The notes under the pieces are model-generated. The model saw only the letters and a program-made list of their open reading frames with translations, was not told the origin of the DNA and searched no databases. Made by a program: the position numbers and the translations under genes. This document shows, in pieces, positions 48,933-51,367 of a stretch of DNA of 64,000 bases; the first letter of the stretch is position 1; every line of letters begins with the position of its first letter. Source of the stretch: Anaerolineae bacterium (GTDB taxonomy: Bacteria; Chloroflexota; Anaerolineae; UBA4142; SHND01); contig JAJVIA010000014.1 in assembly GCA_022072245.1 (NCBI GenBank), positions 1 to 64,000 on the forward strand. The letters run 5' to 3'.

Positions 48933-49064
48933 CGGCTCACGTAACATTTTTCAAGCGCGCGTCACATAACAGGGCGCGCGCTTGACATTGCCGCCAAAAT
49001 TTGGCGCCGAGCCATTTTCCGTCCGCTGCGCGCGGATTTTTTAAAAAGTAGAAATCCAGTGCAA

Positions 49065-49943
49065 ATGTCTTTTCCCAAACCGCAGCCGCGTCCGATTTCG
49101 CTTGCCGCGCAAACGACGCTGGGGCATGTGCGGTTGACCGTACCGAATCTAAAACGTTCGCTCGCGTTTTATCAAGAGGTGTTAGGATTCCGTTTGCAGC
49201 GCATGGAAAAAAACGCGGCGCATCTCGGCGCGGGCGGCGCGGCTTTGCTCGTCCTCGACGAAAATCCCGACGCAAAACCGCAGCGCTTTACCACCGGCTT
49301 GTATCACTTTGCCATTCTCGTGCCGTCGCGTTTGGAATTGGCGCGCGCGCTGCGAAATTTTATCCAACACGATATCGAGTTGGGTTTTGGCGACCATATC
49401 GTGAGCGAAGCCATTTATTTCAGCGACCCCGACGGCAACGGCATCGAAGTCTATCGCGACCGCCCGCGTAGCGAGTGGTATGACAAGAACGGAAATTTTG
49501 TGATGGGCACCCTGCCTGTAGATGTGCGCGGCGTATTGCGTGAATTGGAAAATGAGCCGGACGCTTGGGCGGGTTTGGCGCGCGCCACCGTCTTGGGTCA
49601 CATGCACCTCAAAGTCGCGGATGTGAATCGCGCTGCGGCGTTTTATCGCGACGTCATCGGTTTGGACGAAATGGCAAATATGGGCAGCGCCGCTTTTTTG
49701 TCGGCGGGCGGTTATCATCATCATCTCGGCATGAACAATTGGGAGAGCGCGCACGCGCCCGCGCCGCCGCCCGATTCTGTCGGTTTGCAGTATTTCACCC
49801 TCGTCCTGCCCGATGCCGACGAACTCGCGCGCGTCGCCACGCGGGTGCGCGCGGCGGAATTTGTTTTACAAGAAACGGATGCGGGGCTGTGCGTCCGCGA
49901 CCCATCCCAAAATGGGATGATTCTGACAACCAATAATCAATAA
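49065..49943 (+). CDS. VOC-superfamily protein, catechol-2,3-dioxygenase-like (CatE)
   Basis: The 292-residue protein contains two pairs of VOC modules: LGHVRLTVPNLKRSLAFYQE with LYHFAILVPSRLELARALRN and AIYFSDPDGNGIEVYRDRP, then LGHMHLKVADVNRAAAFYRD with LQYFTLVLPDADELARVATR. Metal ligands H (LGHV), H (LYHFA) and E (GIEVYRD) in the first half fit an Fe/Mn site. Relatives open aromatic rings or act in glyoxalase-type reactions. The ATG at 49065 is preferred to an upstream GTG. Three bases separate its stop from the selenoprotein candidate, so they form one operon. Confidence 0.9.
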   Translation: MSFPKPQPRPISLAAQTTLGHVRLTVPNLKRSLAFYQEVLGFRLQRMEKNAAHLGAGGAALLVLDENPDAKPQRFTTGLYHFAILVPSRLELARALRNFIQHDIELGFGDHIVSEAIYFSDPDGNGIEVYRDRPRSEWYDKNGNFVMGTLPVDVRGVLRELENEPDAWAGLARATVLGHMHLKVADVNRAAAFYRDVIGLDEMANMGSAAFLSAGGYHHHLGMNNWESAHAPAPPPDSVGLQYFTLVLPDADELARVATRVRAAEFVLQETDAGLCVRDPSQNGMILTTNNQ

Positions 49944-49946
49944 ACT

Positions 49947-50549
49947 ATGGATGATCCAATTCGTATTGACGTTTGGTCGGATTTTGTCTGACCTTGGTGT
50001 TTTGTCGCTGGCTTGAGTCTCAAGCAGCTCGGTGAAACACATTCGATTACATTGCATTGGCGCGCGTTCGAACTGCGTCCGGTGGGCGCGCCGCCGCTGC
50101 CGCCGGAATATCGCGCGCAAATTCTTGCCAATCGTCCGGCGTTCGCCGCGCGCGTGCAGCGCGATTATGGCGTCGCCATTCAACCGGGGCCCTTTGACGT
50201 AAATACGCGCGCGTTACATCAATTGAAAAAATTCGCGGACGCGCAAGGCAAGGGCGCTGAATTTCACCAAGCCGCGCTCGAAGCGTATTGGCTGCATGAA
50301 ATGGATGTGAGCGCCGCCGCGATTCAACAAGCATTGCTCGCCCAAGTGGGTTTGACCACTTCCGTCGCGGAGGTATTGGCGGACGAAAATTATTTGCGCG
50401 CAGTGTTGGCGGACGAACAAATGGCGCACGCCAATAATATCAACGGCGTCCCCGCGTTGGTGTTTGCCGAAAAATATCTGGTCGTCGGCGCGCAGCCGCT
50501 GCATATCTTGCGCCAAGTGGTCGAACAGGCGCGGGCGGAACAAGCATGA
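49947..50549 (+). CDS. DsbA/FrnE-family oxidoreductase with UGA at the first active-site Cys (candidate selenoprotein)
   Basis: Reading through TGA at 49989-49991 gives 200 residues: MDDPIRIDVWSDFV-U-PWCFVAG and on to ...VNGVPALVFAEKYLVVGAQP-like features (NNINGVPALVFAEKYLVVGA). FrnE-type thioredoxin-fold proteins have DxVCPWC at this place, so the UGA stands exactly at the first redox cysteine, giving UPWC. Sequence before and after the UGA is in one frame and family-like: helix LHQLKKFADAQGKGAEFHQA and cis-Pro loop GVPALVF. A bulged hairpin with the expected spacing follows (50007-50028). Without read-through a 14-residue peptide would result. The stop overlaps the next gene by ATGA. It may act as a thiol-disulfide oxidoreductase or isomerase in the cytoplasm. 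No Sec machinery genes are in the window. Confidence 0.8.
50007..50028 (+). promoter_or_regulatory. bacterial SECIS-like hairpin
   Basis: In the coding RNA, GCUG (50007-50010), a bulged G, CUUGA (50012-50016), loop GUC, UCAAG (50020-50024) and CAGC (50025-50028) form a nine-pair stem. It begins 15 nt after the UGA and its loop lies 25 nt after it, inside the usual 16-37 nt range. The loop context AGUCU resembles the AGGUCU loop of the E. coli fdhF element, and the bulge lies at a comparable place. Confidence 0.7.
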
Positions 50550-51367
50550 CGCTCGAACCCGTCGAGATTCTGAATTATCTCGAATACGTCAAGGACGACG
50601 GGCGCGCGCATACGATTGTCGGCGATGTGCGCGTCATGCCGCAGGTGTGGATTCCGCAGCTCGAGACCAAGCGCGATATTTTGATTTACGCGCCGCCGTC
50701 GTACAACACGAGCGCCAAGCGGTATCCGGTTTTGTACATGCACGACGGCCAAAATTTGTTTGACGAAGCGACGGCGTACGCGGGACACGATTGGCGCGTG
50801 GACGAAACGATGCAAGCGTTGAGTCAAGAAGGATTCGAGGCGTTAGTGGTCGGCATCTGTCACGGCGGCGAACAGCGTTTGACCGAGTACAATCCTTTTC
50901 CGGGCAAATGGCCCGGGCGCGGCGCGGCGCATGTGGCGTTTGTTTGCGACACTTTGAAACCTTTTATAGACAATACTTTACGCACGCGTCCCGAACACGC
51001 GGCGACGGGCGTATTCGGTTCTTCGATGGGCGGCTTGATTTCGTTGTATGCGTTTTTCAGCCGTCCCGATATTTTTGGCATGTGCGGCGCGATGAGCCCA
51101 TCGTTGTTTGTGAGTCAAAACGCGATTCTCGATTATGCGCGCGCGGCGGCGTGGAATGAAGGACGGATTTATCTGGACAATGGCACGTATGAACCGAGCG
51201 CGCGCCCGATGTATCAAGCGCTGCGCGCGAAAGGATATAAAGCGCGGCGTCATTTGAAATATGTGCGCGAGCGCGGCGCCAGACATACCGAGAGCGCGTG
51301 GGCGCGTCGTTTGCCCAACGCGCTGCGCTTTTTGCTCCAAGATTTTCGCGCTCTGCAAACCGCTTGA
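50546..51367 (+). CDS. esterase of the PF00756 family
   Basis: A 273-residue alpha/beta hydrolase. The oxyanion-region strand is RYPVLYMHDGQNLFDEATAY, the nucleophile elbow GVFGSSMGGLISLYAFFSRP (G-x-S-x-G), and the acid and His appear in LDNGTYEP and GARHTESAWARRLPNALRFL. This layout matches enterochelin-esterase-like and feruloyl-esterase-like proteins. Its ATG overlaps the stop of the DsbA-like gene by 4 nt and the glycosidase gene follows 7 bp later, so the three are co-transcribed. No signal peptide. Confidence 0.9.
   Translation: MTLEPVEILNYLEYVKDDGRAHTIVGDVRVMPQVWIPQLETKRDILIYAPPSYNTSAKRYPVLYMHDGQNLFDEATAYAGHDWRVDETMQALSQEGFEALVVGICHGGEQRLTEYNPFPGKWPGRGAAHVAFVCDTLKPFIDNTLRTRPEHAATGVFGSSMGGLISLYAFFSRPDIFGMCGAMSPSLFVSQNAILDYARAAAWNEGRIYLDNGTYEPSARPMYQALRAKGYKARRHLKYVRERGARHTESAWARRLPNALRFLLQDFRALQTA

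Follow-up and report, generated by a model that had tools for sequence, protein, structure and literature searches.

Known DsbA-like selenoproteins and FrnE

In 2005, a survey of the Sargasso Sea described a DsbA-like selenoprotein with a UxxC motif (COG2761; PMC1088965), and the number of DsbA-like selenoproteins grew to four by 2006 (PMC1794560) and to 45 by 2016 (PMC5029168). A 2026 review lists the kind as 'DsbA-like protein form 1, PF01323, UxxC' and describes the bacterial SECIS element (bSECIS) by a stem of 4-16 bp, a loop of 3-9 nt with G in the first two loop positions, a distance of 16-37 nt from the UGA and a folding energy of -7.5 kcal/mol or lower (PMC13188914). FrnE is a predicted cytoplasmic disulfide reductase/isomerase, which in Deinococcus is connected with cadmium stress as well as oxidative stress (PMC8945050).

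Here we analysed a 64,000-nucleotide stretch of DNA from an Anaerolineae bacterium (the window), in which one gene very probably encodes a FrnE-type selenoprotein. Its predicted product belongs to the DsbA-like form 1 kind by PF01323 domain and UxxC motif, an assignment set by domain and motif. It would have in common with the described form 1 proteins the PF01323 thioredoxin domain, Sec at the first position of UxxC and a bacterial SECIS element directly past the UGA (PMC1088965, PMC13188914). Likewise, it resembles Deinococcus radiodurans FrnE (DR_0659; 5cnw, 5cp1, 5co3) in fold, in the position of the motif (CPWC in FrnE) and in having no obvious signal peptide, but it differs from that protein by the predicted Sec in place of the first Cys. 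It also has no C-terminal CXXXXC, which is present in many FrnE proteins, is not a defining feature and is absent from S. roseofulvus FrnE as well (PMC8945050); the regeneration route is therefore probably different from that of the Deinococcus enzyme. Both the selenoprotein family and the decoding mechanism are already established, and the locus introduces no new principle. The searched literature on selenoproteins of Anaerolineae and Chloroflexota yielded nothing relevant to the FrnE-type gene and no earlier report of this lineage.

A read-through frame of the FrnE type

The frame opens with the ATG at 49947, ends with the TGA at 50547-50549 and is interrupted only by the TGA at codon 15 (Table 1). 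Its translation reads MDDPIRIDVWSDFV-U-PWCF..., and its N-terminus shows no obvious signal peptide; the protein is thus probably cytoplasmic. The read-through translation matched PF01323 (DSBA) over residues 7-191 with 81.8 bits against a gathering score of 25.6, and the nearest solved structure by sequence was Deinococcus radiodurans FrnE (5cnw/5cp1; E 6.8e-20, residues 3-199). An AlphaFold2 model built from 21 relatives had a mean pLDDT of 95.8, and its top PDB matches were the Deinococcus FrnE entries (fold E 2.3e-14, TM 0.81-0.85), followed by Streptomyces SCO1869. In two alignments (A2 and A3), in which Sec was written as Cys, position 15, P16, C18, V168 and P169 were invariant. C18 is the sole Cys of the protein. 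These sequence and fold matches, together with the column alignment described below, bear out a preliminary description of the locus, which had placed the in-frame TGA at the first Cys of CPWC in a FrnE/DsbA family protein. NCBIfam profiles gave weak partial matches only, and no selenoprotein model in that collection fitted the FrnE-type protein. Among these, the Rcas_1661 family of thioredoxin-like (seleno)lipoproteins (NF041057), whose members can have Sec, scored 17.3 bits where 190 are required and was rejected as a different family.

Table 1. Coordinates of the FrnE-type gene, its putative recoding signals and its neighbours in the window
Feature	Position	Strand	Remarks
Candidate FrnE/DsbA-type selenoprotein gene	49947..50549	+	200 residues if UGA is decoded as Sec (U15-P-W-C18); PF01323 E 7.1e-23
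In-frame UGA, candidate Sec codon	49989..49991	+	opens the UPWC active site; TGA/TGC/TGT in 162/162 relatives
Putative bacterial SECIS apical stem-loop	50011..50025	+	stem 50011-50016 with 50020-50025, loop GUC 50017-50019
Wider hairpin including lower stem	49997..50040	+	lower stem of the window sequence, unconserved across the clade
Codon of Pro169	50451..50453	+	Val-Pro (cis-Pro) motif of DsbA/thioredoxin-fold proteins; V168, P169 invariant (A2, A3)
VOC/glyoxalase-superfamily gene	49059..49943	+	upstream neighbour; PF00903 E 3.2e-25
Esterase gene	50546..51367	+	downstream neighbour, ATGA overlap; PF00756 E 3.4e-26

The gene layout also agreed with the preliminary description: a 3-nt gap separates the end of the VOC gene from the ATG, and the esterase start codon overlaps the terminal stop as ATGA. 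The same order of VOC, FrnE-type and esterase genes recurs in the related contigs L048 and L050, which indicates a stable neighbourhood, and the three genes probably form an operon. As had also been foreseen, mechanical ORF listing reported the gene as a 178-aa frame starting at TTG 50013. Standard annotation would shorten this gene, in the window as in dozens of Anaerolineae genomes, with loss of the catalytic residue. Searching the window for other frames that combine a TGA with a hairpin returned 20 more geometrical matches, the translations of which were unlike conserved proteins.

UGA and Cys codons share one column

We used as the main survey 396 genomes of the class Anaerolineae, which involved no selection at codon 15. 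Contigs from GTDB were scanned as well, but one of the search patterns contained DFVCPWCF and favours Cys at the tested column; the class-wide survey is therefore the main evidence. Across both collections, 142 loci could be aligned over the site (a few being the identical record in both), and they carried TGA in 69 cases, TGC in 59, TGT in 14 and any other codon in none. To counter choice bias, we added 20 more relatives found in the class survey, the majority of which had no stop at all; 18 had Cys and two (G010, G046) had TGA in a UVWC motif. The total thus came to 71 TGA and 91 Cys codons (TGC/TGT) among 162 loci, with no other codon, in line with the exchange that the preliminary description had expected among homologues. 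The two UVWC loci (L174, L175) form a third class of relatives, in which the TGA occupies the equivalent site within the motif HDVL-U-VWCF. In four other loci, L033 and L039 (G387, G357) and L036 and L040 (G328, G085), the read-through match crosses a second stop (TGA or TAG).

A conserved hairpin downstream of the UGA

The preliminary description had noted a nine-pair hairpin that begins 15 nt beyond the TGA. A hairpin is indeed present and conserved, but not in these dimensions: the conserved stem has 5-6 bp and starts 19 nt after the UGA, placing the GUC loop at 25 nt. The 53-nt segment 49989-50041 folded with -16.9 kcal/mol, which taken alone corresponds to a z of -1.55. The energy of the window hairpin is by itself unexceptional, and the case for a SECIS element is built on comparative data. 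The window hairpin fits the bSECIS model (PMC13188914): its 3-nt loop (GUC) lies 25 nt from the UGA, its stem has 6 bp, and the energy is -16.9 kcal/mol for the 53 nt.

The consensus fold of the clade retained the upper stem only. Among its 48 distinct UGA genes, the loop 25 nt after the UGA was GUU in 33 and GUC in 15, without exception, and the outermost pair formed in 13/48, leaving a conserved stem of 5 bp. The mean helix over the 48 genes was 5.1 bp, compared with 0.96 bp expected under synonymous-codon resampling (z ~20). Since such synonymous shuffles give far shorter helices, the protein sequence does not explain the hairpin. Both sides were altered in a compensatory manner in five of the six pairs (28 cells versus 6.9 in shuffles, with 0/500 as high), and the stem signal was lost when the register was slid. 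These shuffle statistics overstate independence, the sequences being related, but the effect is nonetheless very large. None of five close Cys orthologues kept the full stem. Mean fold energies did not separate Sec genes (-12.4 kcal/mol) from Cys genes (-13.8 kcal/mol), the Cys set being richer in G+C than the Sec set, and we therefore relied on in-register stem tests. The 18 UGA genes of a second, more distantly related group share a different conserved hairpin, with a stem of 7-8 bp and a loop of mostly GGGUG or GGGCG, which also matches the bSECIS geometry (PMC13188914). In this FrnE-like group (L138-L158), L147 reads SDYI-U-PWCYVGQGVV and has the hairpin UCGGCCA GGGUG UGGUCGA.

Sec decoding machinery and other readings of the UGA

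The preliminary description had pointed to the Sec machinery as a check, and all of it was present in the host genome, which is ~80% complete: tRNA-Sec (70.9 bits, anticodon tca (UCA)), SelA (573.8 bits), SelB (356.6 bits, a single 659-aa frame) and SelD (356.9 bits). The SelD gene (L016; G000:C22:39758-40690, minus strand) has a TGA of its own in the motif AACAG-U-ASKLGAAEL, at the usual Sec position in SelD; it would be the second selenoprotein of the host genome, and standard annotation would truncate it too. Across the class, tRNA-Sec was found in 58/65 UGA genomes of the two main groups and in 237/331 of the others (Fisher p 0.003; counts taken manually from the class survey), a contrast that is modest because the Sec trait is present in most of the class. 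A tRNA-Sec match was absent from seven of the 65, and three of these, G336, G368 and G392 (75-85% complete), had no strong SelA match either; incomplete assembly is the simplest explanation for these gaps. G184 had UGA and tRNA-Sec but no SelA match.

An open frame past the UGA fits any kind of read-through, and the codon could be translated without selenium, a reassigned code or near-cognate tRNA supplying a standard amino acid such as Trp or Cys. We consider this very unlikely. TGA otherwise serves as an ordinary stop, which in the window ends 21 of 51 long mechanical ORFs, the FrnE-type frame among them; the UGA exchanges with Cys codons only; the hairpin agrees with the SECIS model and is degraded in the Cys forms; and the genome holds the complete Sec machinery.

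A lone in-frame stop that leaves a shortened frame in a mechanical listing also has the look of a fresh pseudogene or of a base-call error. However, the TGA at codon 15 was found in three of the four congeners having the gene and in about 60 other Anaerolineae genomes. Such an identical codon in ~65 genomes of the class already refutes a sequencing or assembly error, against which the preliminary description had cautioned, by independent genomes. Compared with the three congeners, the part after the TGA showed 65-78% amino-acid identity and dN/dS values of 0.17, 0.24 and 0.26. Purifying selection thus extends beyond the TGA, and the hairpin is conserved, both of which speak against a pseudogene. 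Because the PF01323 match runs over residues 7-191 and the congeners conserve the sequence, the half after the TGA is not a product of chance; the frame is coding on both sides, as had been proposed. A decayed or miscalled gene is accordingly even less probable than a standard amino acid at this codon. Hardly credible, too, is a true regulatory stop, after which translation, under the influence of the hairpin, would either leave a short peptide or restart at TTG 50013 to give a shortened protein. The restarted 178-aa protein would be without the first strand and the entire active-site motif, yet conservation within the family is among the highest at the residues near U15 and C18.

A probable FrnE-type thiol/disulfide oxidoreductase with Sec

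We therefore favour, with a probability of about 0.96, a probably cytoplasmic FrnE-type thiol/disulfide oxidoreductase whose attacking CXXC residue is Sec (U15-P-W-C18), inserted by means of SelB and the hairpin. The Cys-to-Sec exchange suggested by the preliminary description gains support from the machinery, the UGA/Cys column and the conserved SECIS-like hairpin, and on these comparative grounds the predicted insertion of Sec at UGA 49989-49991 is strongly supported. SelA and SelD would produce Sec on tRNA-Sec, and SelB would bind the hairpin 19-34 nt past the UGA and bring the Sec-tRNA to the ribosome there. By analogy with FrnE, nucleophilic attack would fall to Sec15 and resolution to Cys18: the Sec15 selenolate may attack a substrate disulfide, or hand one on, and Cys18 may then resolve the mixed selenide-sulfide. 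Both the direction of the activity, as reductase or isomerase, and the substrates are presumptive.

Sec/Cys exchange in Anaerolineae

Judged from the codons, the Sec form of the FrnE-type protein appears to be widespread in Anaerolineae and to have been exchanged with the Cys form repeatedly. In a tree of 107 proteins, one supported group combined 48 UGA genes with six Cys genes, a separate group contained 18 UGA genes, and the topology implied at least 6-7 switches between Sec and Cys. Where Cys genes are nested among UGA genes, a Sec-to-Cys reversion is the simplest reading. A congener of the window genome, G171 (L022, G171:C60), has TGC although SelA and tRNA-Sec are present, and its loop is no longer GUY. 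Of two sister genomes, G055 (L124) has UGA together with SelA and tRNA-Sec, and G083 (L044) has TGC; neither SelA nor tRNA-Sec was found in the G083 genome, where the Sec trait was apparently lost along with the replacement of Sec by Cys.

We lean slightly towards a history in which at least two, perhaps three, separate lineages of FrnE-type selenoproteins with different SECIS hairpins exist in Anaerolineae, the first having borne Sec since early in the class and having undergone several later Sec-to-Cys reversions with decay of the hairpin, in one case in a genome where no Sec machinery was found. If this is true, the FrnE-type lineages form a natural series for Sec/Cys exchange within one enzyme. 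The 66 distinct Sec sequences and the six Cys proteins of one tree group, with both forms in one genus, make a good comparative system for the timing of Sec-Cys exchange. One further gene, L052, is a TGC Cys form with a partial remnant of the hairpin (CCA GUC UGG), which is compatible with a recent change from Sec to Cys.
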